Virus record (IMG/VR): IMGVR_UViG_3300049024_000096
Coordinates: 1 to 46,712 of that record
Length of the DNA stretch: 46,712 bases
Origin: a virus
Direction: 5' to 3' (one strand)
Part shown: piece after piece, positions 5,064-46,712 of the stretch
Layout: the number at the start of each line of letters is the position of its first letter
Position numbering within the stretch: position 1 is the stretch's first letter
Notes under the pieces: generated by a model
The model's input: only the letters and a program-made list of their open reading frames with translations
Databases searched by the model: none
Told to the model about the DNA's origin: nothing
Position numbers and translations under genes: made by a program

Positions 5064-6517
5064 CCGAGGGTCGCATCCCGCCTAGCGATCTGGACGCCGA
5101 GTCGGCTGTGCTCAGCGCCATCATGTTCAAAGCGACCGCGCTCGACGACTGCGAAACCGTGCTCCGTCCGGAGCACTTTTACGCTGACGCCAACCGGCGG
5201 ATCTTCGAAGCCGCACGTGCCTGCGCGGCCACGGGGCGCCCCACGGACATCACGGCCATCACGGGCGCGCTGCGGGACGCGGGCAAGCTGCAAGCGGTTG
5301 GCGGGACCCCGTACCTGGCGGAGATCATCGGGACGCCGTCGGTGGCCAAGGTGGAGCCCTACGCGCGACGTATCGTCGAAAAGTGGCGCCTGCGGGAGCT
5401 CATTCGACACTGTCAGGAGATCGAAGCTGAGGCTTACGCGGACACCGGCGACGTGAACGCTTTCGTGCAAGCTGCCGAGGCACGCATCTACGCGGTGGCC
5501 GAGCAAAGCGACCGGCCGACGACGCTACATGGTGCGCGAGCGATCATGCAGCAGTGTTTCAACGAGACGAAGGACGCTCGGTACATCGGCAAGAACACGG
5601 GTGCCTCGACAGGATTTCTCTCGCTCGACAACCGCATCGGTGGCCTCAAGCCAGGGCGCGTGTACGTCGGCGCAGGACGCCCAGGCATGGGCAAGACGTC
5701 CTTCTTGGCGGCGGCCGCAAAGGCGGTGGCGACATCGAAGAGCGAGGCACGTGGCGTCTACCTAGCGTCGATCGAGATGCCGGCCAAACAGATCGGCGAT
5801 CGCTTTATTGCCGTCGAGACTGGCATCGACACGCGGGCGATTGAAAACGGCAAACTCAGCGCGCGACAGTGGGAGCAATACTCGGCTGCCGTGCAGACCA
5901 TCGGTGGATGGCCGATGCTCATTGAGGAACAGGGTGGCATCAGTGTGCCGCGTCTGCGGAGCTCGATCCGGCGCGCAGCAAGGGCGCTCGAGCGGGATCA
6001 CGGCACCAAGCTCGGTCTCATAGGGGTCGACTATCTGCAGCTCATGAGCGAGGACTCGAGTGGGCGCAACAGCTTCAACGAGAACGACCGTCTCACCAAG
6101 ATCAGCGCGGGGCTCGTGGGTATCGCGAAAGAGTTCAACGTGCCGCTGATTCTGCTCAGCCAGCTAAATCGCGACTGCGAGAAGCGCCCCGACAAGCGTC
6201 CCCAGCTCGGTGACCTGCGCGGCTCAGGCGCCATCGAGCAGGATGCGCACACCATCATCTTCTTTTTCCGCGAGGACATGTACCGGCCCGCCAAGGAGCA
6301 GAAGGATCGCACGGCGGAGTTCATCATCGCTAAGTGCCGCGGCGGCCGCATGGGGACGGTGCGACTTGGTTACCTCGACTACTGCACCAAGTTCGTCGAC
6401 GAGCGCGACGATGATCCTGACGATGAGTACGCGGACCACGCCAACGTGCATGCGGCGCAGGGCTCGCAGCCGCTTCGCGACACCAGTTACGACTACCTAG
6501 ACCAGCAAACGCTCTGA
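5060..6517 (+). CDS. dnaB: Replicative DNA helicase, DnaB-like
   Basis: This gene encodes 485 aa, close to usual DnaB length. The N-terminal domain (residues 1-110, SDLDAESAVLSAIM) is the helical collar that contacts primase and loader. Walker A is GRPGMGKT (206-213), SIEM (E239) holds the likely catalytic Glu, and Walker B is LIGVDYLQLM (D324). A further hallmark is LLSQLNRDCEKRPDKRPQLGDLRGSGAIEQDA. It forms the hexameric 5'-3' helicase that opens the phage fork. The upstream DnaT-like protein is the natural loader. No primase is visible, so host DnaG is probably used. The ATGA start overlap is clear. Confidence 0.95.
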   Translation: MTEGRIPPSDLDAESAVLSAIMFKATALDDCETVLRPEHFYADANRRIFEAARACAATGRPTDITAITGALRDAGKLQAVGGTPYLAEIIGTPSVAKVEPYARRIVEKWRLRELIRHCQEIEAEAYADTGDVNAFVQAAEARIYAVAEQSDRPTTLHGARAIMQQCFNETKDARYIGKNTGASTGFLSLDNRIGGLKPGRVYVGAGRPGMGKTSFLAAAAKAVATSKSEARGVYLASIEMPAKQIGDRFIAVETGIDTRAIENGKLSARQWEQYSAAVQTIGGWPMLIEEQGGISVPRLRSSIRRAARALERDHGTKLGLIGVDYLQLMSEDSSGRNSFNENDRLTKISAGLVGIAKEFNVPLILLSQLNRDCEKRPDKRPQLGDLRGSGAIEQDAHTIIFFFREDMYRPAKEQKDRTAEFIIAKCRGGRMGTVRLGYLDYCTKFVDERDDDPDDEYADHANVHAAQGSQPLRDTSYDYLDQQTL

Positions 6518-27333: not shown

Positions 27334-28245
27334 ATGCCCGCCTTCGATAGCGCACAGCGCGCGAGCTTCAATGGGATCGCCTTCCCGGTGAAGACCATCT
27401 CGATCAAGGGCAAATATCGGCACGCCGACCACGAGTATCTGCGCGTGCCCGGCGCCGTCATCGAGAAGCTCGAGCGCTCCGTCTACAGCATCGAGATGCA
27501 GGCGGTGTTCGACACGAACATCCGCGGCTACGGGCAGCTCTGGCCTAACGGCGTCCAGGCGCTGCGCGCGCTGTACGAAGCCGGTACGACCGGGCCGCTC
27601 GTGGTGCCCACCATCGGAACACTGCCGGCCTTTCAGCCCGACTGGGACCAGAACATTGAGATCGCTAAGGTCCGCTCAGGCGAGACCATCAAGCTGAGCT
27701 TCAAAGAGGATCAGACCCAGAAGTTTCTGCAGCTCGCGCTTGTCCAGACACAGCAGCAGTCGCTGGCCACGACGACGGGCAACCTCGCGACGGTGCTGGC
27801 GAGCCTGAATCCTCCACCTGAGGATCAGTCGCTATTCGATGGCATCGTGAGCAGCGCGAACAGCATTTTGGCCATCAAAGATCAGGCGGATCTTTACGGT
27901 GGACTGCTGTCCGTGAAGCTGCAGACGCTAACTTCGTTGTTCGACCAAGCCGATAAGCAGCTCGAATCACTGAAGGACCCCGCGAACTTCGAAGCGCTCG
28001 ATGCGTTCCTCGAGATGTGGAACGCGGCCGTCAGGATGGCCACGAATCTTGCCGATAGCCCACGCGGCCCGCGCTCGTACACGACGCCGCGACAGATGAG
28101 CGTCTCGGACATCGCGACCGCCATCTACGGGAGCAGCGAACGGGCCCCCGAAATCATGATGAACAACCGGTTTTCTGACCCGTTTGCCGTGCCAGCGGGT
28201 GAAAAAGTCATCTATTTCGAGGACGCGGGCCTGCTCGCGGCGTGA
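27334..28245 (+). CDS. Mu gpN-like DNA circulation/tail protein with LysM-like end
   Basis: This gene encodes 303 aa. The N-terminus (FNGIAFPVKTISIKGKYRHADHEYLRVPGAVIEKLERSVYSIEMQAVFD) and LWPNGVQALRALYEAGTTGPLVVPTIG match the DNA circulation/gpN family, whose Mu member forms part of the hub-adjacent baseplate. The C-terminal 45 residues (MSVSDIATAIYGSSERAPEIMMNNRFSDPFAVPAGEKVIYFED) resemble a LysM/gpX-like module, suggesting peptidoglycan or tail binding. Gene order (tape measure, N, P, 45, 46, 47, 48) is exactly Mu-like. Confidence 0.82.
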   Translation: MPAFDSAQRASFNGIAFPVKTISIKGKYRHADHEYLRVPGAVIEKLERSVYSIEMQAVFDTNIRGYGQLWPNGVQALRALYEAGTTGPLVVPTIGTLPAFQPDWDQNIEIAKVRSGETIKLSFKEDQTQKFLQLALVQTQQQSLATTTGNLATVLASLNPPPEDQSLFDGIVSSANSILAIKDQADLYGGLLSVKLQTLTSLFDQADKQLESLKDPANFEALDAFLEMWNAAVRMATNLADSPRGPRSYTTPRQMSVSDIATAIYGSSERAPEIMMNNRFSDPFAVPAGEKVIYFEDAGLLAA

Positions 28246-28248
28246 TCC

Positions 28249-29688
28249 GTGGGGCACGCCGTCAACGAGGACCGATTCCGTCTGGTGGTCGACGGGAAGG
28301 ACTGCCCGATCGCCTCGCGGTACAGCGCAGCCGCGGGCGTCTTCGATGTCCCATCGCAGTTCGACATGCAGGTCGGCCACAACGGCCTGCTGACGGAGCT
28401 GCTGCACAACTATTGCGAGTTCACGCCCTTCGAGCTGTACGTCAACGATGTGCAGGTCATGGTGGGCGACATCGACGAGCTCACGGGAGCCGGCGGCGAT
28501 GGCACGGAGCTCAAGATCGATGGTCGCGACCGGCTCAAGTACATCGTCGACTGCGAAGTCGAAAACGACGAAGAGGTCAAGGACGTCACCTTTGCCGAGC
28601 TGACCGAGCTAGCGATGAAGCGCGTCGGTCTCGGCGACGTCTCGCTCGTCAGCGACAACTTGGCCAACCGGAAGGCCATCACCGGAAAGTTCAAAATCAC
28701 CGAAACGGTGAAGCCAAACACCGAGGAGACCGACAGCGAGATCGCTCAGACCGTCGAGACTCGCACGCGCCTGGTGCACAAATCGCTCGAGCTCGAGGCA
28801 GGCTCGACCTGGTGGGACATCCTTATCCCGCAATACCGGCGCGGCGGGTTGTTCCTGTGGGCCGACGTTTTCGGCGGCTTCGTGCTGGCGCAACCGAACG
28901 GCAAGCAGTCGCCGCTTGGTCGGGTCCTTCGTCGCCGGAGTGGAAACGGTGAGTCCGGTGAGGTCACGATCCTGGGACAGCCGGACTTCATGCGGTCGGC
29001 GAAGCCGCGCTACACCGCCGTACAGGTGCTCGGTCGCAAGGGATCAGGCGCCGACGGTCGCGGTACCGCCAAGAGCAAGCGCCTCGACCAAGAGATGATC
29101 GCGCTGCTGAACCCGCTCGAGGCGGACCGCGCGAACGGTGGCAAGCGGCAGAAGGTCAAAACCTACCGGGACGACAAGGTCAAGACGCCAGAGCAGGCAG
29201 ACTTCTTGGCACTCCGGCAGCTGGCCGACAGCCGCCGCAATGGCTTCCGCCTCGTGTACACCGTCTCGGGACACACGTTTCAGTCGATCACTGGCAGCGG
29301 TCGCCTCGTCTGGCAACCCGACACGGTGATGCATGTCGTTGACGACGAGCTTGGGATCGATGGGCCGATGTACGTCGACGACTGCAAATACTCGAAAGAC
29401 GTCCGTGGCCGCACGCAGACGCGCGTGAGTCTGATGCGTTGCGAAGACCTGATCTTCGGCGAAGAAGACCTCCTCAACCCACCGCGCACGGCGAGCAAAA
29501 GGGGCCTCGTGCGGATCGGACGCACCGAAGTGTTCCGGCCCCAATGGGTCAAGGATCCGAACTGGGGCGGACTCCCGACACTGCGCGGCGTGCACCTCGA
29601 CGACGATCCCAGCTTTTCAAATCGAGGGCAGGTTCCAACCGGAGGCACGGGCTTCGTGGTGGACAAGGGCCTTCGCAGGCGTCAGTGA
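28249..29688 (+). CDS. Baseplate hub protein (Mu gpP/gp44-like)
   Basis: This gene encodes 479 aa from a GTG. The start (FRLVVDGKDCPIASRYSAAAGVFDVPSQFDMQVG), and later LYVNDVQVMVGDIDELTGAGGDGTELKIDGRDRLKYIVDCEVE, show the gp44/gpD hub fold. Near the C-terminus come MYVDDCKYSKDVRGRTQTRVSLMRCEDLI ('G ... T.v.lv'). The trimeric hub joins the tube to the spike. A disordered, unusual C-terminal extension follows. The neighbours and order match Mu. Confidence 0.85.
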   Translation: MGHAVNEDRFRLVVDGKDCPIASRYSAAAGVFDVPSQFDMQVGHNGLLTELLHNYCEFTPFELYVNDVQVMVGDIDELTGAGGDGTELKIDGRDRLKYIVDCEVENDEEVKDVTFAELTELAMKRVGLGDVSLVSDNLANRKAITGKFKITETVKPNTEETDSEIAQTVETRTRLVHKSLELEAGSTWWDILIPQYRRGGLFLWADVFGGFVLAQPNGKQSPLGRVLRRRSGNGESGEVTILGQPDFMRSAKPRYTAVQVLGRKGSGADGRGTAKSKRLDQEMIALLNPLEADRANGGKRQKVKTYRDDKVKTPEQADFLALRQLADSRRNGFRLVYTVSGHTFQSITGSGRLVWQPDTVMHVVDDELGIDGPMYVDDCKYSKDVRGRTQTRVSLMRCEDLIFGEEDLLNPPRTASKRGLVRIGRTEVFRPQWVKDPNWGGLPTLRGVHLDDDPSFSNRGQVPTGGTGFVVDKGLRRRQ

Positions 29689-35468: not shown

Positions 35469-36542
35469 CTAAAGACGGTCAGCCGGCTGCACAAGGGGGG
35501 AGTCAACGGCGTGGAGTTCTCGCCCGGATTCCGCGGGCTTGGGCGCGCGCTCGAGAAAGTGGCGCACGAACTGGTCGACGATGTGGCGAACGAACGGCTT
35601 CTCGACGTGGCGCTTGTCACCTCGCCAAACGGTAGCCGGATCGGCCAGCGTCGCCATCTCGTACGACGGAAAATAGACGACGTCACCATGGTCACGGCAA
35701 AACTCACCCGCGGCAGCGCGCAGGGTGGCCTTTGACTCTGCGTTCGCTTCGATGACGTCTCGGTCGGTGTAGGTGAACGTCAGCGGGATCGGCGACACGG
35801 TCACGACAAAGAGCGCGCCCGGTTTGCAGTGTTCGCGGATCAAAGAGTGCATCGCGTTCAGGTGGGAGAGGGTCTCGGCAAACGAAAGCACGTGGAGCTC
35901 GACCGTGTGCTGTCGCCGCATCTCGCGAGCGGTCGGCGACACATTTCGGTACAGCCCAGAGTGCGGGTCGTAGCCAGCCTCCGTGAGCCCCAGAGTCACG
36001 ACGATCACATCTGCGCTTCGCAGGCCCTGCTGATCTCTCCAGAAGCGGTGACGCCTCTCTATCACCGCCGCGGGCGCATCCGGTAAAACCTGGTGGTAGT
36101 GGGCGTCGAACCACTTCCCGTCGCCGGTCTCCACCAGCAGGGCGTCGTCCGGCACGACATGCGAGCCCTCCAATAGCCTTCGAAACTCGAGCAGCATCGA
36201 CGCAGTGTTGTAGCGGTTGAGAAGTCCAGATTCGGGTACGCCCGAATCGTCGATCGAGTGGGCTCCCTCTACGCGGCTCATGATTTCGAGCCCACGCGCG
36301 GCGCAAACCCTCTCGATCTCACGAGCGAAGCAACTGCCCATCGCGAAGAGTGAACCAGAGCGGTTGATGGTGTGCGCCGTGCCGGAAAGCCGCATCGGCA
36401 ACGTGGACTTGTACAGCCGCGCGCTCGCGCAATGGGGATCGCTGCCCGGCTCGCTCGAATCCTTCCCCTTTCCCCACTGATTGTGGGTGTTCCTGCGGAA
36501 GTTCGACCACATCTGCTGCACCGACAACGAAGCGCGACTCAT
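35469..36542 (-). CDS. GSCFA-domain protein on the reverse strand
   Basis: This gene encodes 357 aa from ATG 36542; the second Met at 36512 is possible, and neither has a clear ribosome site. Residues 63-85 (GSLFAMGSCFAREIERV) carry the GSCFA signature at 69-73. The family's SGNH-hydrolase-like fold is consistent with VIVVTLGLTEAGYDP, LFVVTVSPIPLTFTYTDRDV and VVYFPSYEM. GSCFA proteins are found with cell-envelope polysaccharide genes, but their reaction is not well established. It is divergent from the gene at 36606 and precedes the lipoprotein. In phage, possible roles are polysaccharide deacylation or host-envelope conversion. Confidence 0.85.
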   Translation of the reverse strand: MSRASLSVQQMWSNFRRNTHNQWGKGKDSSEPGSDPHCASARLYKSTLPMRLSGTAHTINRSGSLFAMGSCFAREIERVCAARGLEIMSRVEGAHSIDDSGVPESGLLNRYNTASMLLEFRRLLEGSHVVPDDALLVETGDGKWFDAHYHQVLPDAPAAVIERRHRFWRDQQGLRSADVIVVTLGLTEAGYDPHSGLYRNVSPTAREMRRQHTVELHVLSFAETLSHLNAMHSLIREHCKPGALFVVTVSPIPLTFTYTDRDVIEANAESKATLRAAAGEFCRDHGDVVYFPSYEMATLADPATVWRGDKRHVEKPFVRHIVDQFVRHFLERAPKPAESGRELHAVDSPLVQPADRL

Positions 36543-36605
36543 GCGCCGCAACGCTAGCGGCACGCGCCCAAAACCGCCACCGCGGCTTGAAAAAGTACCA
36601 GAACC

Positions 36606-37022
36606 ATGGCCGAAGACGTCATCCAATTCCAGCTTCCCGCACCGATCAGGCTCGGCGCGGCCCCTACGCCAGGCAGACCCGACGAGCGTCACGAGTACTC
36701 CCTTAGCGACATGGTGGCCCACTTCGGGCGCCGCGCGCGCGAGTACAACGAAAACGCCGAGGCGGCCCGCATGTACCGCCGCACGCAGAGCGCGATCGAT
36801 AACCCGGACAAGAAGAACCAGGTGACGCTCGAGCGGGAAGATCTGCGAGTGCTCAAAGCGCTGGCGGAAGCGCCGCGCTGCGGTTGGGCGGAGGCTGTCG
36901 TCGCCTTCGAAGAGGAGGTCGACGACGGAAAGGGAGGAACCCGCATCCGCAAAGGAAAACGGCGCGTCAACCTTGCCGCGCACGTCTTTCTGCCGCTCAT
37001 CGACGCGATCCCAGCTCCCTAG
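36606..37022 (+). CDS. Hypothetical protein upstream of the tailspike
   Basis: This gene encodes 138 aa from an ATG without a convincing ribosome site. The sequence is mostly helical (SLSDMVAHFGRRAREYNENAEAARMYRRTQSAIDN, LEREDLRVLKALAEAPRCGWAEAVVAFEEEVDDGKGGTRIRKGKRR). Its start faces that of the GSCFA gene across only 63 bases, so both promoters must lie there or inside the genes. It may be a fibre chaperone given its neighbour. No family was recognised. Confidence 0.65.
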   Translation: MAEDVIQFQLPAPIRLGAAPTPGRPDERHEYSLSDMVAHFGRRAREYNENAEAARMYRRTQSAIDNPDKKNQVTLEREDLRVLKALAEAPRCGWAEAVVAFEEEVDDGKGGTRIRKGKRRVNLAAHVFLPLIDAIPAP

Positions 37023-37062
37023 TGGTCCTGCAAGGTTTCCGCCACCGCTGTTCGGACTCGCA

Positions 37063-39642
37063 ATGTCTACTCCTGCAAACGTACAACTCCTGATCACGCT
37101 GGACGGTGGTCCGCCGCAGAGCGGCAAAGTCACCGCTGCGCATGACGATGTTGTCGTGCTCAAGCTCGCCAGCACCAGTGGTGTCAAAAAGGCCAAGTAC
37201 CGTATTCGGGACTACCCGGAGGGGTTCGCCTGCCCCGCAGGCTGGACGAACGAAAACGGTAGGTACGTCGCGGTAACGACCAATGGCGCCGACGCGCCTC
37301 CCTTCACGCTGCCAGCGGCGCTCTACGCTGAGCAGGCCGGAAAGTATGCGTTCGACGTCGAGGTCAACGACCGTCGCCGCAATGGCGCGATCGCCAGCGA
37401 CCTTTACTACAAGCATACGAACCTTGAGATTCCGTTCCCTACGGGTGTCGAAGATGTCTTCTTCGAAGAAGAGGACGAATTCGAGGAGGCCAGCACTTCG
37501 ATCCTGAAGCGTTCGTGGACTCGCGCGATCAAGGCGCTGGTGCGGCGCTACAACGAAGGCCTTCCAGGAACGGGCGACATGTCCGGCCCCGCTTCGTCGG
37601 TGTCGGGGCGCATCGCTTTGATGAGCGGCACCAGCGGCAAGCTCATCGCCCAGAGCGCGCGCAGCATCGCTGAGATTCAGCGGACCGACTTCAATGTTGT
37701 CTATTATGGCGCTTCTACCGCGGCGACCGGCGCGACAAACAGAGCCGCCTTTAACGCCGCGATCGTTGCCGCCAACGCGGCCTACGTGGCGACGGGAGCG
37801 CAGCAAGTCGTGCTCGTGCCGCCCGGCCGATACCGGCTCGAGCCGAGCGCATCGTCGTCGTGGAACTTGCCGCTGTATGGCTCAACGGCGCAGATGCACA
37901 TCGCCGTCAATCTGCTTTCTGGAGTCACGATCATCTTTGATGAGGCCGAGATCGTGGCCGTCCCGCCAGCGGGCGCCGACTCGAGCTGGTACTACGCCTT
38001 GTTCGGCACCGCCCTCAACATGACGGTCGGCACCTTGAAGAGCGTCAAGCTCCTGGGGCTCCGAATGGACTTCACGACGGTCTACTGGACGTCGGACCAC
38101 ACCAATCTCGTTGGCATCGTTGCAGTTGGGGTCGACGATCTCGAGGTGCGCGATGTGCTTTGCGTGCGCACCGCCGGAACCGCCGGCGCAACGGGACGCA
38201 TCGCCAAGGTGATGAACTGCAAGCGCGTCAAGCTCACGGGCCTCGATGCGCGCGATATCTCACAGGCTGTCTACCTGAACTACTGCTCCGACGTCGAGAT
38301 CCGCGGGCGCGCAGAAGGTACCCACGAGGGATTCGATATCGATCAGCCGTGCCAGCGCGTTAAGTGCTTTTTCAGCATGATCAACGGCACGGGCAACGAG
38401 CAGCAATGCGCCGACATCGCTGGTGTAACGGACGGCTACTTCGAGCTCTTTTGCGAGAACATTGGTCAAGCCTTCAACGTCTACACAAAGCCGGACTGCC
38501 ACCCGACCTTCGCGGACTGGGTGACAAAGTTCCCGACTGCCACGAACGCTGTGGCCCCCGTCCACCCAAAGCGCGTCAAGATCGTCGCGCGCGGCAAGAA
38601 TATTCACAGTTCGCGCACGCGCGCGGGTCAGGTGAGTAACCGTCGAGACGACACCTTTGGCGCCGGCTACTGGAACGGAACAGGGATCGCAACAGACATC
38701 ACGCTCGACGTGGCGTTTGAAGATTCCGATCCGGTCGTTGTTTTCGAGTGCGAAAATTTGACGACCGACATCGCGCTCGATTACACGAACCTGGACGGGG
38801 AAGCGGCCAGCGCGAACAACAACAACTTCGCTCTCATCCTCCGGTCCGAGCATGTGGGCGGGGCCACGGTGTTGAACGAGAGCAAGCTGAGTGGTCGCGT
38901 CCGCGCAACCATCCGCGGCTCTGAGCGCGGCGGTATCCTGGTGCTGGCACCGACCGATCTTGAACTCGAGGCGAACATCGACGGGTACAACTCCATCGAG
39001 GACGCCACGTCTAACTCGAATTGCGGCTTACGCGCCGAGCGCTTGGCGGCAAAGCCCGGTGTGTTCACGTACAAGAACCTGCGTATCAAAGGCGGCGACC
39101 TGGCTCCCGTAGTGCCAGTCGATGTGAGCATCAGCAATGACTCCGCCACTGGCGCCACCGGCTACACCCGCCTTCGGGACCTCGGCGGCCACCGGCTGAG
39201 CAGCGGCGGGACGCCCATGTCGGTTGCATCCAGCCCTGAGTTTCAGGGTCAGAAGACCTACGAGACCACGATCTCGATCGACACGACGACCGCCACCAAC
39301 GACATCAAGGTGAAGCTCGTCAAGGAGGGCGGCCTTCGTCTGCTCGCGGCCTACGCGACCAGCCTGGGCGCCATCACCGGAACCAGCGGAACGAACTACA
39401 CCTCGCTGTCGATGCGTCGCATTCGCGCTGGGGTTACGAGCTCAGCCATCGGCACCGACACGCCCTACGACAACGCGAACCGTGCCGCCTGGGAGGAAGT
39501 CAGTCTGCAGGTCGACGGCACCGATGCCGACGGTGTTTTCATCGCGGGCGACCACATCGCGGTGCGCGCGAGCAAGCAGGGCGCCGGCTCGTCGCGGGCC
39601 AACATTCAGATTCGCCTCGTGTTCGCCGAATACTCCCTCTAA
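37063..39642 (+). CDS. Large tailspike with beta-helix (pectate-lyase-like) fold
   Basis: This gene encodes 859 aa, the largest in the window. Residues 1-130 form a beta head domain (VQLLITLDGGPPQSGKVTAAHDDVVVLKL). Residues 172-198 (DMSGPASSVSGRIALMSGTSGKLIAQS) match the linker common to phage fibres. Residues 209-260 (FNVVYYGASTAATGATNRAAFNAAIVAAN ... QVVLVPPGRYRLE) begin a right-handed parallel beta-helix of pectate-lyase-3 type. The C-terminal 100 residues (YTSLSMRRIRAGVTSS ... RANIQIRLVFAEYSL) form a beta tip. Tailspikes of this kind bind and often cleave host polysaccharide. Catalytic residues cannot be named from sequence alone. Confidence 0.85.
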   Translation: MSTPANVQLLITLDGGPPQSGKVTAAHDDVVVLKLASTSGVKKAKYRIRDYPEGFACPAGWTNENGRYVAVTTNGADAPPFTLPAALYAEQAGKYAFDVEVNDRRRNGAIASDLYYKHTNLEIPFPTGVEDVFFEEEDEFEEASTSILKRSWTRAIKALVRRYNEGLPGTGDMSGPASSVSGRIALMSGTSGKLIAQSARSIAEIQRTDFNVVYYGASTAATGATNRAAFNAAIVAANAAYVATGAQQVVLVPPGRYRLEPSASSSWNLPLYGSTAQMHIAVNLLSGVTIIFDEAEIVAVPPAGADSSWYYALFGTALNMTVGTLKSVKLLGLRMDFTTVYWTSDHTNLVGIVAVGVDDLEVRDVLCVRTAGTAGATGRIAKVMNCKRVKLTGLDARDISQAVYLNYCSDVEIRGRAEGTHEGFDIDQPCQRVKCFFSMINGTGNEQQCADIAGVTDGYFELFCENIGQAFNVYTKPDCHPTFADWVTKFPTATNAVAPVHPKRVKIVARGKNIHSSRTRAGQVSNRRDDTFGAGYWNGTGIATDITLDVAFEDSDPVVVFECENLTTDIALDYTNLDGEAASANNNNFALILRSEHVGGATVLNESKLSGRVRATIRGSERGGILVLAPTDLELEANIDGYNSIEDATSNSNCGLRAERLAAKPGVFTYKNLRIKGGDLAPVVPVDVSISNDSATGATGYTRLRDLGGHRLSSGGTPMSVASSPEFQGQKTYETTISIDTTTATNDIKVKLVKEGGLRLLAAYATSLGAITGTSGTNYTSLSMRRIRAGVTSSAIGTDTPYDNANRAAWEEVSLQVDGTDADGVFIAGDHIAVRASKQGAGSSRANIQIRLVFAEYSL

Positions 39643-40798: not shown

Positions 40799-41968
40799 GT
40801 GGCCGGCATTACATCCCGAATCACCGACGTACCAGGCATCACGTCGGTCATCTCAGATGCGCCATTGCAATTCAGTCGGTTGCTGGCGGCAGCGATTGGG
40901 ATCTCCCCGTCTGTCGCCGCGCAACTAACTGTAGCGGTGCCACTGGCCGGCGGAGTAGGGATCTCCCCGTCTGTCGCCGCGCAGCTCACGGTAGCGCGCC
41001 AACTAGCTGCTGGCCTGGGTCTTTCGCCAGACGTAGTCGCGACGCTGATCAACCCACGGCTGCTGGCAGCGGCGCCGTCCATTGTGTCAACGGTGGCGGC
41101 GACGCTGACCAACCCGAAAGCGCTGGCGGCAGCCGTTGGGGTCACGCCGAGCGTCTCAATGGCGCTCACGAATGCGCGCGCGTTGGCCGCCGCTCTTGGT
41201 GTTTCGCCAGCCGTCGCGGCGACGCTGTCCAATCCGCTATCAAGCCCGCTCAACATTGCAGGATGCGTTGCGTGGTTCGACATGCAGGACGCAGCCAGCT
41301 ACACGCAAGCTGGCACCGTCACATCGATCACTAATAAGGCGAGTTCAGTTGCGTGGAACACAGCTCAGACCGCCTTCCCGAACTATTCCGCCGCGGGCCT
41401 CAACGGTCATCCGTGCATGGACCTAAACGGCGTCACGATGGGCATTTCCTCAACGGAAGCCGCCGTGGTGTCAGCCTTCACCAATACGCCGGCCTACACA
41501 GTTCTGGGCGTAGTGCAGCAGGATCTAGTCGATAGCGTCAATGCCTGGTTCGGCTTCGGATCTTCAGCCGTATCGGGTGTTCCAAACTCTGGCTACTTCG
41601 GCACGAACACGACGGCCGCCGGCGTTTGGATTGCAGCGGTCCGTACCTCTGCCGGGACTGCGATCAATGCCGAGTCGTCGGCCACGGCTAACTCAAACGC
41701 TAACGTCCAGGAAGTTTGGCACACAGGCACCATGGTCTCCTGGTCGAGCAATGGCGCAGCGGCTGACCCGAGCGCCATTGCTCAGGACTCTGCGTCGGTG
41801 GCTCCAAATAGGTGCGCCATAGGCTGCAATCCTCGACAGACCCCCGTCGCTTTCCTGGACGGGAAGATCGGCGAGATTGTGATTTACAACACCGAACTCA
41901 GCGCCGCTCTCAGGTCTCGAGTTCGTCAGTACCTCGGGACCAAGTGGGGGATCTCGGTCGCAGCATGA
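40799..41968 (+). CDS. Adhesin with 20-residue tandem repeats and lectin-like domain
   Basis: This gene encodes 389 aa from a GTG. Residues 28-147 are six perfect-length 20-residue repeats of the type xLAAAxGxSPxVAAxLTxxx. Residues 150-385 form a beta-rich domain (VAWFDMQDAASYTQAGTVTSITNKASSVAWNTAQTAFPNYSAAGLNGHPCMDLNGVTMG ... FLDGKIGEIVIYNTELSAALRSRVRQYLGTKWGI). That ending is typical of LamG/concanavalin-like lectin domains in phage tail adhesins. It probably binds a host surface sugar. The repeats may form a helical stalk. Confidence 0.8.
   Translation: MAGITSRITDVPGITSVISDAPLQFSRLLAAAIGISPSVAAQLTVAVPLAGGVGISPSVAAQLTVARQLAAGLGLSPDVVATLINPRLLAAAPSIVSTVAATLTNPKALAAAVGVTPSVSMALTNARALAAALGVSPAVAATLSNPLSSPLNIAGCVAWFDMQDAASYTQAGTVTSITNKASSVAWNTAQTAFPNYSAAGLNGHPCMDLNGVTMGISSTEAAVVSAFTNTPAYTVLGVVQQDLVDSVNAWFGFGSSAVSGVPNSGYFGTNTTAAGVWIAAVRTSAGTAINAESSATANSNANVQEVWHTGTMVSWSSNGAAADPSAIAQDSASVAPNRCAIGCNPRQTPVAFLDGKIGEIVIYNTELSAALRSRVRQYLGTKWGISVAA
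40880..41239 (+). repeat. Six 60-bp tandem repeats in the adhesin gene
   Basis: The repeats encode six 20-residue units with no length change. Units 1 and 2 are nearly identical at DNA level (a 26-base run beginning GGGATCTCC recurs exactly 60 bases later). The others have diverged. Recent duplication of one unit is implied, so copy number could vary between relatives. Confidence 0.85.
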
Positions 41969-42234
41969 CCAGAGGCGAAGCGATCGCAAGGTTGGCTAGG
42001 GTGGACCCGCGCGCAAGTGTCGCGGTGGACGAGTTCGTCGAGAATGGCGCCGCCAGGCACCGCTACCGCTACGTCAACCCTGACGGAGCTGGAGTTTGCA
42101 CCATTGAGATCGACGCCGAGCCGGGCGATCTACAAGTCGCGGAACTGGTCAAGAATCTCCCTATCCCTGCGGACCGACGCTCTGAGGCGGCGGCCATCAT
42201 GAGCGGCAGGGCGCCAGTCGCCGCGCCCCGTTGA
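41965..42234 (+). CDS. Small hypothetical protein
   Basis: This gene encodes 89 aa from the ATG in an ATGA overlap with the adhesin gene. The sequence (GEAIARLARVDPRASVAVDEFVENGAARHRYRYVNPDGAGVCTIEIDAEPGDLQVAELVKNLPIPADRR) has strand-rich character in the middle and a C-terminal helix. Translational coupling to the adhesin suggests a fibre chaperone. No family was recognised. Confidence 0.6.
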   Translation: MTRGEAIARLARVDPRASVAVDEFVENGAARHRYRYVNPDGAGVCTIEIDAEPGDLQVAELVKNLPIPADRRSEAAAIMSGRAPVAAPR

Positions 42235-42248
42235 AACGAAGCACCTAG

Positions 42249-42611
42249 ATGGCCAAACCGATCAACGAAGACATCTCGGTCGTGCGCGGCGATGATGACG
42301 ATAAGTTCGTCGACTTCAGCGTCGACGTCTCCGAGCTCGATGAGGTTTGGTTCACGGTCCGCGAGGAGTGGCGCACTGAGAGCGACGCCAGCGATGGCGC
42401 CGTGGTGTTCCAGGCCAAGATGAGCACTGGCGGGATGCAGGCTGGTAGCACCAGCAAGCAGCTGCGGTTGCCCCTGCCGAGTGCGCAGACCACCACCTGG
42501 TGGTTTTCCCAGTACGTCTACGACGTGCAGGTCTCCGCGGGCGGGAAGATCACGACGACACAGCGGGGGATCCTCCGTGTTGAGCCGGACGTTACGGCGT
42601 CGCTTGCGTAG
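42249..42611 (+). CDS. Small beta-sandwich-like fibre or baseplate protein
   Basis: This gene encodes 120 aa. NEDISVVRGDDDDKFVDFSVDVSELDEVWFTVREEWRTESDASDGAVVFQAKMSTGG, then SKQLRLPLPSAQTTTWWFSQYVYDVQVSAGGKITTTQRGILRVEPDVT, is an all-beta layout like the N-terminal domain of BppU-type upper baseplate proteins. It lies at the end of the adhesin block before the lysis module. The call is by pattern only. Confidence 0.6.
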   Translation: MAKPINEDISVVRGDDDDKFVDFSVDVSELDEVWFTVREEWRTESDASDGAVVFQAKMSTGGMQAGSTSKQLRLPLPSAQTTTWWFSQYVYDVQVSAGGKITTTQRGILRVEPDVTASLA

Positions 42612-42698
42612 CGCGCCAATCACCTCACCGCCGCGCTCGGCTCGCCCGTCGCCTCCCACGCCAGGCGGTGAGCGCGTGCGGTTCTTTTGGAGACAGAA

Positions 42699-43340
42699 AT
42701 GGAAACCGAAGCCATCGGCGCCATCGCGCGCGAAGTGTCACCCGCTGCCATAGCCGGAGCGATCGTCGCCGTCCTGCTGGCATTCAGCCGCAAGGCTCCG
42801 CTCATGACTCGACTGTGGGCGATGCTCCCGCACCCGTGGCCTGTCGTGATACCGGCGCTCGTCGCGCTGATCCCGCAGATCGTCGATGTCATGAAGGACG
42901 TTTCGACCTGGGGAGGCTTCGCGCTCTCGCTGTTTACGGCGTTCTCGATCGCGGCGCCCGGCTTCGAGGCTGCGCGACCCAAGGACAAGGATGACAAGGG
43001 ACCGCCGAGCGGAAAGCCCGTTGGCCCCTGGGTGGATGTCGACGCCGAGAAGACGCCGCCGAGTTTGCCGGGCGTAACCCGCTTCATCGCGATCGGCTGG
43101 ATGCTGCTCGCTTGCGCGCTGCTCGGCGGCTGCGGCCTCTTCACGGCACAGGGCGCCAAGAGCGCGCAAGATCTCGCTCACGACCTCTGCGTACTGCACT
43201 ACGGCAAGGCTAAGCCCGCGTTGTCGCTCGATGACGTCGCGCGCACGTATTGCAAAGACGTCGACCCCTGGCTCGAGGCCATCGTTGGCGCTGAAAAGCT
43301 GGGCGCCGCCAAGGCTGCGGCGAAGGCGCCGAAACGATGA
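42699..43340 (+). CDS. Membrane protein with N-terminal holin-like helices and internal lipobox
   Basis: This gene encodes 213 aa from ATG 42699, with TGGAGAC upstream. Hydrophobic segments lie at about 16-29, 48-65, 72-88 and 128-146. The last contains LLACALLGGC with a Cys at 145 like a lipobox, after a Pro/Lys linker. Then follows a charged domain with two Cys (HDLCVLHYGKAKPALSLDDVARTYCKDVDPWLEAIVGAEK). It may be a holin fused to a lipoprotein, or two products through an internal start at M135. A spanin-type role is possible. It overlaps the protease gene by four bases (ATGA). Confidence 0.65.
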   Translation: METEAIGAIAREVSPAAIAGAIVAVLLAFSRKAPLMTRLWAMLPHPWPVVIPALVALIPQIVDVMKDVSTWGGFALSLFTAFSIAAPGFEAARPKDKDDKGPPSGKPVGPWVDVDAEKTPPSLPGVTRFIAIGWMLLACALLGGCGLFTAQGAKSAQDLAHDLCVLHYGKAKPALSLDDVARTYCKDVDPWLEAIVGAEKLGAAKAAAKAPKR

Positions 43341-44065
43341 TCCGCCGCGGTCTCGGCTACCTGCCCGACGCGCCCAGCATCCACGATCGGCTGTTCCGCG
43401 CGCACCCGAAGTCAGCAATCTCCCTGCCCGCGTCCGTTTCGCTCTGGGATGACCGCTGCGAGATCAAAGATCAGGGGCAGACAAACAGCTGCGTCGGGCA
43501 GGCCTTCAGTCAAGGCATCCGTCTGGCGTATCTGTTCGCCGGCATCGACTGCCCGGAGCTGAGCGCGGAGTTCGTGTACTACCTCGCGCGTCTCCAGCAC
43601 GGTGGCGAGAATGAGGACGTCGGCACATACCTGCGGTCAGGCGCTCAGGCCGTGAAGAAGTTCGGCGCGGCCACCGAGGAATCGTGGTCATTCGAAGAAT
43701 GGCGCATCAACGAGAAGCCTAGCTTGGGCGCGCTCCAAAGCGCTTACGACCGCATGCGGGGCTACTACCGCATTGAGGAAGGCGACATCGACGGCGTGCG
43801 CAGGGCGCTTGCCGCTGGCTGTCCCGTCGTTGGCGGCTGGCAAGTATCGGAGTCCTTCCTTTATTGGGAAGGAGGAACGATCCCCGAGCAGACGAGCGAT
43901 ACCGTCGGTGGGCACGCGCTCTGTCTCGATGGGTACGACTCCGACGGCACCTTCACGGGAGTCAACTCGTGGGCCAGAGACTGGGCTGACGAAGGCCGCT
44001 TTCGGGCGAGTGAGCGTTTCGTAAAACAAGCAAATGACCTTTGGGCCCTGGACGTGACGCCATGA
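43337..44065 (+). CDS. Papain-like (C1A) cysteine protease in the lysis region
   Basis: This gene encodes 242 aa. The oxyanion/catalytic element is KDQGQTNSCVGQAFSQGI (Q46, C52, with the Q+6=C spacing of papain). GGHALCLDGYDSDG carries the His (H193), and TFTGVNSWARDWADEGRF the Asn (N210), all in the right order and spacing. No signal peptide or long propeptide is visible; the first 40 residues are short and basic. It could digest peptidoglycan cross-bridges, act inside the virion, or process phage proteins. The neighbours are lysis-like genes, so a peptidase endolysin is a fair inference. Confidence 0.85.
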   Translation: MIRRGLGYLPDAPSIHDRLFRAHPKSAISLPASVSLWDDRCEIKDQGQTNSCVGQAFSQGIRLAYLFAGIDCPELSAEFVYYLARLQHGGENEDVGTYLRSGAQAVKKFGAATEESWSFEEWRINEKPSLGALQSAYDRMRGYYRIEEGDIDGVRRALAAGCPVVGGWQVSESFLYWEGGTIPEQTSDTVGGHALCLDGYDSDGTFTGVNSWARDWADEGRFRASERFVKQANDLWALDVTP

Positions 44066-44325
44066 AAAGCCCGCTCATTGCTTTCCTCGCGCTGGCTTGC
44101 AGTACCGCTCCGCTGCCGCCCGTGCCGCCGGTGCCCGCGGGCGAAGCGTCGTGCGCTACCGCCTGCCGTCGCATGCAGGATTTGCGGTGCCCAGAGGGCG
44201 ACAACACTCCAGCCGGCGCTTCATGCCTCAACGTCTGCTGGAACGCGGAGGAGAACGGCCTCACGTTGCCCGTGCGCTGCCTGACCGAGGCCAGGAGCTG
44301 CGACGCAGCGGAGCGCTGCCAATGA
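44062..44325 (+). CDS. Small Cys-rich lipoprotein in the lysis region
   Basis: This gene encodes 87 aa from the ATG of an ATGA overlap. The start MKSPLIAFLALACSTAP has an atypical lipobox-like ALAC (C13). The mature part has eight or so Cys (CATACRRMQDLRCPEGDN, SCLNVCWN, RCLTEARSCDAAERC), a spacing seen in small Polyangia-type surface proteins. It may be an outer spanin-like lipoprotein, or a cell-surface moron. Overlaps the next gene (ATGA). Confidence 0.65.
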   Translation: MKSPLIAFLALACSTAPLPPVPPVPAGEASCATACRRMQDLRCPEGDNTPAGASCLNVCWNAEENGLTLPVRCLTEARSCDAAERCQ

Positions 44326-44489
44326 CCATCGCCGCCCTCCTGATCGCGCTCGTGATCATCGGCGTGGCAATGGCGCTCCTGCCAATGGAACAGACGGTCC
44401 GTCGCCTGATCCTGGTGATCGTCGTGGTCGTGGCGCTGGTCTGGCTGCTCTCGGCGCTGGGTATCTTGCCGGCTGTGAGGTTTCGGTGA
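44322..44489 (+). CDS. 55-aa two-helix membrane protein, holin candidate
   Basis: The ATG overlaps the upstream stop. IAALLIALVIIGVAMALLP and LILVIVVVVALVWLLSALG are two strong hydrophobic helices with a short charged loop (MEQTVRR). The short length, tandem helices and position before the endolysin fit a class II holin. Similar small membrane proteins exist in bacteria without a lysis role, so the call is tentative. Confidence 0.65.
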   Translation: MTIAALLIALVIIGVAMALLPMEQTVRRLILVIVVVVALVWLLSALGILPAVRFR

Positions 44490-44581
44490 GACGCGCGTTT
44501 GACAAAGTGCGCACGGGCATCGCGCTCGCACAGGTCGTTGGAAGCCTGCTGGCCTGGGTGATCCTGGAGACTAGACGGTGA
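44486..44581 (+). CDS. 31-aa possible single-helix membrane peptide
   Basis: GTG in a GTGA overlap, and its stop overlaps the GTG of the endolysin (GTGA). It reads RRAFDKVRTGIALAQVV, then GSLLAWVILETRR, one hydrophobic helix flanked by Arg. It is too short to judge alone, but the perfect coupling on both sides is in its favour. A holin partner is possible. Confidence 0.45.
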   Translation: MRRAFDKVRTGIALAQVVGSLLAWVILETRR

Positions 44582-45336
44582 TCGCCAGGTACCTCCCCGA
44601 CAAGCTCACGCCGCTCACGCCAGCGCAAGCAATCGTGGCGCTTCGCAGGGCGTACGAGGCTGTTGAGGGAGAGCGCCCGTCGCCGGATTGTCTCGCGATC
44701 CACACGGCACAGAGTGCACTTGAGGCGGCCCGGTGGAAGTCGCTGCACAACTTCTGCTTCACGAATGCCAAGGCGAGCGCGAGCTATCCAGGGCTCTTCT
44801 CTTGCTACAAGTGCAACGAGAAGCTGAAGGATGGGTGGCACTGGTACGTGCCGGAGGGTGAGCTCGTCGGTGGCTTCGGTACAGCGCTGAAAGGAGCGCC
44901 GCTTCCAGTGCCCGACGGTCACCCACAGACGCGCTTCCGTGCCTTCACCAACATCAACGCGGGCGCTCTTGACCACATGCAGCTCGTGAGGCGTAAGTGG
45001 CCCGAAGCGTGGACGGCCGCGCGTGGCGGTGACGTTGCGGGATTCGTCCACGGTCTCAAGATGCGCAACTTCTTCACCGCCGATGAGGCTCCTTATCTCA
45101 AGGGTGTGGCCAGCTTGATGCGCGAGTTCCTGCCACTGGTGAACCAGTCGAGCGCGACGCCGCCTGAGCCGCCCCCAGACGACGAGCAGACGCGCTGCGA
45201 GGCGCTTGCGTGCGTCGCACCGGATCCGGATCGGTATCTCCACACCGAGGCAGTAATCGCCAGCATGAACAGCATGGGTGGCGTGTGGGATGCTATCCGC
45301 AACGAACGAAACGCCGCGATGCGTGAGCCTGACTGA
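44578..45336 (+). CDS. Endolysin, glucosaminidase-like
   Basis: This gene encodes 252 aa from a GTG. Residues 40-190 match the glucosaminidase/FlgJ-like fold: TAQSALEAARWKSLHNFCFTNAKAS ('Q.aLE.g.gkS..hN.fgikA'), with E49 the likely catalytic acid. Then come HPQTRFRAFTNINAGALDHMQLVRRKWPEAWTAARGGDVAGFVHGLKMRNFFTADEAPYLKGVASLMREF ('fRay ... Y ... f ... l...gyaTd..Y'). It cuts the glycan strand between N-acetylglucosamine and N-acetylmuramic acid or related bonds. No signal sequence is visible, so export would need the holin. Confidence 0.85.
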   Translation: MIARYLPDKLTPLTPAQAIVALRRAYEAVEGERPSPDCLAIHTAQSALEAARWKSLHNFCFTNAKASASYPGLFSCYKCNEKLKDGWHWYVPEGELVGGFGTALKGAPLPVPDGHPQTRFRAFTNINAGALDHMQLVRRKWPEAWTAARGGDVAGFVHGLKMRNFFTADEAPYLKGVASLMREFLPLVNQSSATPPEPPPDDEQTRCEALACVAPDPDRYLHTEAVIASMNSMGGVWDAIRNERNAAMREPD

Positions 45337-46339
45337 GCAGCTTCGAAAACTCCTGATTCTTGCATCGGCGGGGGCCAATCCAATGACCCCCATGAGCGCA
45401 CTGGCTCTCGCCACCTACACCCGCCCACGCTTGCGACTGATCATGCCCGAAGACACCGACCGCGTGACTCCCACTGATATCGCTCCGCCGCCCAGCGTGG
45501 ACGAAGTTCCAATCACGCAGCCGCCGGGCAAGCTGGAGACGATGCTGCCAGCGCGCACGCCGAGCGACTTCAAGGAGGTCGCGGTCAACGATGTCCTTGC
45601 TGCGCAGCGCCAACTCCAGCGGGGGCTCGACGACTTGCTTGGACCCGGCGGGAGACTCGAGGCCCAGACCGCAGCCATCGCCGCCGTTGTCGACAACGCG
45701 GCCGCCAAGTGGGACGGAACCTACCGGCTACTTGCCGGCGAGATGCAAACGTTTCGCCAGCAGGTTGAGGCCAAAGACCGCGAGCAAGACACCAAGCTCG
45801 AGCGCGTCATGAGCGAGCTGGTGGCGTTGCGAGCGCGCGTCGAGGTGCTTGAGCGCGAACGCGGAGGCGGACGCGAGCTCAGCGAGGTTAAGTCGCTGCT
45901 CACGGCGCTGTTCCTACGCATGGAGATGCAGGAGGCCAACGGGGCGCCCGCCAAGGCGACGCTTTCGGGTCGCGTGATCCTCGTCGTCGAAAACGAGGAC
46001 TTACTCGTCCGTACGCTCAAGCGCGTCCTGGTCAGCCGTGGCGCTCAGGTACTCACCGCGCGCAACTTCGACGAGGTCCGCACCGAGCTCAGCTCCTCGG
46101 CAACCGACTGCGTGCTACTCGACATCCGACTCGAGGCCGACGACGGGATGGAGATCGCCAAGTGGTTGATCGCTCAGCGCGCACTGCCCAAGGAGAGGAT
46201 ATTGCTCCTGACCGGGCACGCCAACCCCGAGCACCAGGCGGCGGCCAAGCGACTCGGGCTCGTGGTCCTCGAGAAGCCGATCGCTGCCGCGGATTTGGTT
46301 GCCGCGATCCTGTCGAGCATCGAGACTCCCTCCAACTAA
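45323..46339 (+). CDS. Coiled-coil protein with C-terminal CheY-like receiver domain
   Basis: This gene encodes 338 aa from GTG 45323; ATG 45443 would give a shorter product, and neither has a good ribosome site. Residues 90-205 are helical/coiled coil. Residues 217-332 form a response-regulator receiver domain: VILVVENEDLLVRTLKRVLVSRG (acidic pocket E223, with Asn in place of the second Asp), VLLDIRLEADDGME (phospho-acceptor D267), ILLLTGHA (T297), VVLEKPI (K318). No DNA-binding or enzymatic output is present. It may be phosphorylated by host kinases and act through the coiled coil. Phage receivers of this kind are unusual. Confidence 0.85.
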   Translation: MSLTEQLRKLLILASAGANPMTPMSALALATYTRPRLRLIMPEDTDRVTPTDIAPPPSVDEVPITQPPGKLETMLPARTPSDFKEVAVNDVLAAQRQLQRGLDDLLGPGGRLEAQTAAIAAVVDNAAAKWDGTYRLLAGEMQTFRQQVEAKDREQDTKLERVMSELVALRARVEVLERERGGGRELSEVKSLLTALFLRMEMQEANGAPAKATLSGRVILVVENEDLLVRTLKRVLVSRGAQVLTARNFDEVRTELSSSATDCVLLDIRLEADDGMEIAKWLIAQRALPKERILLLTGHANPEHQAAAKRLGLVVLEKPIAAADLVAAILSSIETPSN

Positions 46340-46348
46340 CGATCACCG

Positions 46349-46712
46349 ATGACCCCGCCCGCACCGGGAGACAAGCCGCCCGGGCCGCGACGCGTTCCCA
46401 CCGACCCGCAAATCATCGACCTAGAGCCGGAGCCCGAGGTGCTGGCTCGCCGGCGGTTCGACCGCCCGCAACCTCGCAGGGCGACGATGCCGGGGCTGGC
46501 GCCGGTTAGACTGCCGGGGGCGCCGGAGCTGCCGGCCGAGTTGGCCCCGACCAAACCGGCCCCGTCAGCCGCAAAGGCTGGCCCTACGCTGCGCGTGACG
46601 CCCGCGTCGGGGCAAGACGTCGCCCGCGTTGAGCCACCAGCCAGCGGGCGCGCAGAGGCCCGCGAGGCCCTGCTCGAAAGCGAGCTGACGAAGGCGCGTG
46701 CGCAGGTCGCGG
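46349..46712 (+). CDS. Pro-rich protein, cut by the right window edge
   Basis: ATG 46349 starts a frame open to the end of the window (121 residues seen). It is Pro/Ala-rich and disordered (TPPAPGDKPPGPRRVPTDP, LPGAPELPAELAPTKPAPSAA), then turns into a charged helix (AREALLESELTKARAQVA), perhaps the start of a coiled coil. It could be a partner of the adjoining receiver protein. Nothing more can be said. Confidence 0.6.
   Translation, partial: MTPPAPGDKPPGPRRVPTDPQIIDLEPEPEVLARRRFDRPQPRRATMPGLAPVRLPGAPELPAELAPTKPAPSAAKAGPTLRVTPASGQDVARVEPPASGRAEAREALLESELTKARAQVA

Follow-up and report, generated by a model that had tools for sequence, protein, structure and literature searches.

A receiver domain on a predicted helical protein beside putative lysis genes in a temperate tailed phage

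Introduction

What might a phage do with a receiver domain of the CheY class, and does it matter that the gene lies among late genes, near the end of the late gene run and beside putative lysis genes? The question is raised by the end of the window, i.e. the whole 46,712-nt stretch of DNA analysed here, for which an earlier note had described a phage-borne receiver on a coiled-coil protein that may tap host phosphorelays. Receiver domains in phage proteins are already known, both from PHROGs families and as the divergent cREC domain of jumbo phages (PMC7824862), and phage proteins acting on host two-component systems are known as well, e.g. PIT4 of phage LSL4. The novelty of the present case lies in a receiver that is carried by a helical protein and encoded, with no accompanying kinase, beside the lysis slot of two divergent phages. 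A full-text search, with most subscription journals outside its coverage, gave no paper by the phrases tested for response regulators or histidine kinases encoded by phages.

The receiver gene lies within a phage genome

The window is one complete IMG/VR record, and a second record (IMGVR_UViG_3300049050_000059, hereafter G001; 62,603 bp) is 100% identical to it over window positions 40976-46712 and 1-33651, although the two may come from related samples and are therefore not independent evidence of conservation. G001 adds 23,215 new bases leading from the window end to the window start. That is, the two records are two cuts of one circular genome of 69,927 bp. The new part encodes an integrase (Phage_integrase, E 6e-18), RecT, Dam and convergent small genes, and the window encodes terminase, portal, sheath, tape measure and baseplate genes. 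Because the circle carries integrase and RecT genes and the window carries structural genes, the source is a tailed phage that is temperate and has tail-sheath genes; the receiver gene is part of this genome, with phage genes on both sides. A run of host genes at the contig end, which the earlier note had named as a finding that would speak against a phage-borne receiver, is ruled out, as the overlapping G001 record continues into phage genes and closes the circle.

The tyrosine integrase gene (L005:7652-9088, corresponding to G001 27652-29088) ends at window position 136, and the C-terminal part of its frame contains DSGIRTPDL, a stretch of the sort commonly produced by reading through a tRNA 3′ end; because of this stretch, attP probably overlaps the integrase gene. 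A portal profile search of genome contigs gave only one match, in an alphaproteobacterial MAG (37%). Plasmid matches of the receiver came mostly from Alphaproteobacteria, in a collection that is itself biased, and since the nearest are only 30-39% identical, the receiver is no recent copy of anything in that collection. Inside the tail-fibre region, a minus-strand open frame (window 35469-37196) contains a 'GSCFA'-like stretch, FAMGSCFAREIERVC, and possibly encodes a GSCFA-type esterase domain.

The receiver protein and its domain

The gene and the features of its product are as follows.

45323..46339, + strand: receiver-domain protein (P0001), 338 aa from GTG 45323; alternative starts ATG 45383 and ATG 45443
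45656..45937, + strand: long predicted helix, aa 112-205, possible (weak) coiled coil (AlphaFold2 model; heptad test)
45971..46321, + strand: receiver (REC) domain, aa 217-333 (Pfam Response_reg; strand/helix order of the model; Foldseek matches to CheY-type receivers)
45989..45994, + strand: E223-N224, at the positions of the metal-binding acidic pair D12-D13 of CheY (residue comparison)
46121..46123, + strand: D267, phospho-acceptor position (residue comparison)
46211..46213, + strand: T297, conserved Thr/Ser position (residue comparison)
46274..46276, + strand: K318, conserved Lys position (residue comparison)

The open frame reaches back to 45278, and a gene starting at GTG 45323 would share 14 bases with the upstream gene (44578..45336). 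Over 45323-45442 the codon-position G+C bias is weaker than from 45443 on, so that either of the two ATG codons is an equally likely start; ATG 45383 is preceded by a G-rich stretch. The choice of start codon does not affect the receiver domain itself, across which the frame is intact and the codon-position bias present. The product is a non-membrane protein with a Pro-rich N-terminus, followed by the helix and the C-terminal receiver.

Response_reg was the sole Pfam family above cut-off in the protein, and its match (59.1 bits versus a cut-off of 30.2, E 5.7e-16) spans aa 219-329 and positions 1-110 of the 111-position profile, which supports the earlier description of a complete receiver domain. 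No second domain (DNA-binding, enzymatic or known effector) was found in Pfam, PHROGs or NCBIfam, in agreement with the proposed lack of an HTH or enzyme output, and D267, T297 and K318 all occur where they had been reported. The AlphaFold2 model, built from two sequences and with a confidence that is low to moderate (mean pLDDT 53, receiver ~66), gives the receiver order of five alternating strands and helices (E218 H226 E243 H249 E263 H275 E292 H302 E314 H322), as expected from the earlier note. Foldseek matches of the receiver model include CheY, HemR, ArcA and EutV, plus some designed P-loop proteins, the latter being no surprise with a coarse model.

The previously noted substitution of Asn for one Asp in the acidic pocket corresponds to N224, the neighbouring position being Glu223. 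Among the 29 cellular receivers of one alphaproteobacterial MAG, Asp or Glu occupies the first pocket position throughout and Asp alone the second; that is, Glu at the first position is not unusual, whereas Asn at the second occurs in none. The acidic pair of a canonical phosphorylatable receiver is thus not found in this protein, and N224 may weaken Mg2+ binding and phosphorylation. A literature search found nothing on a D13N change in CheY. DgcR binds Mg2+ through an E-D-D pocket (PMC8041772).

The coiled coil that had been placed in front of the receiver stands in part: the model contains a helix of 94 residues, but its heptad pattern was equalled by 72-233 of 1000 shuffles (7-23%) and is thus only weakly better than chance order. 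Searches of INPHARED and IMG/VR and the receiver-profile scan found no relatives of the N-terminal part.

Gene neighbourhood

The gene lies among late genes of the phage. The neighbouring genes are listed below, G024 and G025 being relatives found by portal searches.

42687..43340, + strand: membrane/lipoprotein-like protein, before the peptidase gene (sequence features)
43337..44065, + strand: papain-family (Peptidase_C1) protein (Pfam/PHROG; homologues in G024 and G025)
44062..44325, + strand: Cys-rich lipoprotein-like protein with lipobox LALAC (G024 and G025 have similar ORFs behind the papain-like gene)
44322..44489, + strand: holin candidate, a membrane protein of 55 aa with two hydrophobic stretches (match to the Thivi_2564 family below threshold)
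44578..45336, + strand: 252-aa protein, glucosaminidase-like by eye only (same slot as enzyme-like ORFs in G024 and G025)
46349..46712, + strand: next gene, starting 9 bases past the receiver gene and cut by the window end; complete as G001 5374-6237 (287 aa)

Two parts of the earlier picture call for correction. The upstream gene 44578..45336 had been labelled as an endolysin, but profile libraries, structure searches and relatives yielded no family for its product, and its structure model (pLDDT 38) is unusable for recognising an endolysin fold. Moreover, the receiver gene had been thought to close the lysis module, whereas the 287-aa gene begins 9 bases on and continues beyond the window, so that the receiver gene is not the last of the run. 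The 287-aa product has a Pro-rich part, a short coil, one hydrophobic segment and a coil-like tail, and is predicted to be membrane-anchored; BLASTP between the N-terminal part of the receiver protein and this protein gave no meaningful similarity. A terminator-like hairpin with an 11-pair stem (G001 6485-6510) follows the 287-aa gene and precedes the convergent genes, but since similar matches are equally frequent in shuffles it is only suggestive.

The pairing of the papain-family peptidase gene with the adjoining Cys-rich lipoprotein-like gene also occurs in G024 and G025, where the two are followed by VanY-like and CHAP-like ORFs (by eye). The peptidase is a candidate for lysis or host-surface attack.

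Receivers in related and other phages

Relatives were collected by portal searches. The search for Response_reg covered one bacterial MAG and, in addition, 32 virus records, among which a single further phage, G019, had it. Among the eight genomes of at least 60 kb in the portal family (this phage, G011, G019, G024, G025, G028, G031 and G033), a receiver is present in two, this phage and G019, and it is therefore not essential for lysis. The records of G011, G024, G028, G031 and G019 have identical ends (59-127 bases) and are therefore probably complete circular genomes.

G019 (IMGVR_UViG_3300045391_004365; 90,174 bp) has a portal 41% identical to that of this phage. The two genomes are collinear through the head and tail genes, whose identity is roughly 30-50%. 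Its receiver protein (240 aa) has a helical N-terminus and a C-terminal receiver (Response_reg, 46 bits) with a canonical E-D pocket followed by D, S and K, and aligns with the protein studied here only over the receiver (31%). The gene overlaps the stop of an Amidase_2 endolysin gene (67 bits) by 4 bases, and a gene for a TM protein ends this amidase-receiver operon. The window neighbour, by comparison, has no family match, and the surrounding genes offer holin and lipoprotein candidates only. A receiver plus coiled-coil protein next to an endolysin, which the earlier note had proposed to look for in other phages, is matched by G019 as regards the receiver on a helical N-terminus behind an amidase, but not as regards the heptads, of which the G019 helix showed no enrichment in the shuffle test used for aa 112-205. 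With roughly a hundred genes per genome, finding a receiver gene at this slot in both phages suggests that its position is of importance. The two receivers may have a common ancestor or may have been gained independently.

Whole-protein homologues were found neither in INPHARED nor, beyond the same phage, in IMG/VR, and the receiver-profile scan gave only G019 and two stand-alone receivers. A different group of phages encodes nearly identical stand-alone receivers of 131 aa (L131:5980-6375, L132:5980-6375, L136 and L137) amid its late structural genes. They resemble the present case as phage-borne receivers among late genes, but are CheY-sized, have no helix in front and possess the canonical E-D pocket.

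No HATPase_c, HisKA or Hpt match exceeded the cut-off in this phage or in G019; any kinase must therefore be the host's.

Comparison with known systems

The protein agrees with CheY-class receivers (PF00072) in fold order, in D267/T297/K318 and in matching the profile over its full length, and differs from them in its Glu-Asn pocket and in the placement of the receiver at the C-terminus of a helical protein, without output or kinase. In NCBIfam, both phage proteins matched best to NF041832, the C-terminal receiver of NahK/ErcS hybrid kinases, which likewise follows a helix. The DHp and ATPase domains of a hybrid histidine kinase are absent, however, HisKA and HATPase_c being below cut-off, and the score is 45 bits versus a family cut-off of 400; the match thus hints at origin and not at membership. 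C-terminal receivers of hybrid kinases exchange phosphate with partners instead of carrying an output.

FrzS and AglZ of Myxococcus xanthus share the joining of a receiver to a coiled coil without DNA-binding or enzyme output. They are host motility proteins with an N-terminal receiver, and FrzS lacks the conserved acceptor, whereas the phage receiver is C-terminal and has the Asp, so that the protein is not of the FrzS/AglZ type. The FrzS receiver joined to its coiled coil works without phosphorylation, and M. xanthus has many atypical receivers of this kind (PMC1974792). In DgcR, phosphorylation of the receiver can switch the attached coiled coil between registers (PMC8041772), the coil following the receiver there, whereas in the phage protein the helix precedes it.

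Among phage families, phrog_5982, phrog_731 and phrog_20458 contain receivers and have no function assigned in PHROGs; the match to them is confined to the receiver (profile lengths 1030, 227 and 829). The cREC domain of jumbo phages (PF20274) is likewise a divergent receiver fold, and is linked to NAD/ADP-ribose enzymes (PMC7824862). It was rejected for P0001, which scores 20.9 bits against a cut-off of 27 while lying well above the Response_reg cut-off, and no NAD/ADP-ribose neighbour was seen by eye. A PADLOC match to PD-T4-6 (E 2.5e-5) was judged to be generic receiver similarity.

Possible functions of the receiver protein

The reading that we tentatively favour, at somewhat less than even confidence, is that of a late cytosolic protein on which a host kinase or Hpt docks and which acts through its helix on a membrane step of lysis. 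The protein would be made late, remain in the cytosol and self-associate or pair via the helix; a plausible partner is the membrane-anchored, coil-like product of the gene just downstream. A host histidine kinase or Hpt would dock on, and perhaps phosphorylate, the receiver, and the docked or phosphorylated state would alter the assembly of the helix and so tune the membrane step of lysis, release thereby responding to host state. We count in its favour the intact D/T/K residues, the phage sequence on both sides, the terminator-like hairpin after the next gene, the lack of a phage kinase or Hpt together with the hybrid-kinase receiver as best NCBIfam match, the DgcR precedent and the recurrence in G019 beside an amidase and an operon-end TM protein despite only 41% portal and 31% receiver identity. 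Against it count Asn224, seen in none of the 29 sampled receivers, the presence of a receiver in only two of the eight large genomes, the heptads, weak here and absent in G019, the putative status of the neighbouring endolysin, and the tie to the downstream membrane protein, which consists of gene order only.

The same lack of an output domain and of a phage kinase, as well as the hybrid-kinase match, would also fit a decoy, that is, a free receiver that takes phosphate away from a host hybrid kinase or Hpt, or competes for such a partner, and thereby blocks a host response (stress, defence or development) at a late stage of infection. In that case the helix would serve only to multimerise the receiver, and the lysis region would be a convenient site for accessory genes, in line with the sporadic occurrence. 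We consider this rather unlikely: host takeover genes of phages are usually early, whereas this gene is in a late run, a decoy does not predict recurrence at the lysis slot in two divergent phages, and Asn224 may lower phosphate acceptance. The unusual E-N pocket turns into an argument in favour if the receiver is instead an atypical protein-binding module in a phosphorylation-independent scaffold, as in FrzS (PMC1974792) or AglZ, with the helix serving assembly or cell placement. Such a role appears unlikely, as the phage protein retains Thr, Lys and the acceptor Asp, the last of which FrzS lacks, the G019 pocket is canonical (E-D with D/S/K), the domain order is opposite to that of FrzS, and a Myxococcota host is only conjectural. 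Finally, rarity in the family (two of the eight large genomes) and an N-terminal part with no relative found would be expected if the C-terminal receiver of a host hybrid kinase had been captured and joined to a helical protein of the phage, the product now having hardly any function or none; the intact frame, codon-position bias and acceptor residues, the similar arrangement in the divergent G019, and the identity of only 30-39% to the nearest plasmid receivers make this quite improbable.

Returning to lysis tuned through a host kinase, it seems doubtful that a whole class of tailed phages puts the membrane step of lysis under the control of a receiver-plus-helix switch that reads host histidine-kinase phosphorelays, a host two-component system thereby setting the time of lysis without a phage kinase. 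A kinase-less receiver among late genes of two divergent phages, near the lysis slot, would permit a direct test of whether lysis can be wired to host phosphorelays; should the protein act as a decoy, it would count as a counter-signalling protein of a new kind. The arrangement in the two phages suggests that certain phages may sense or disturb the signalling of their hosts around lysis.
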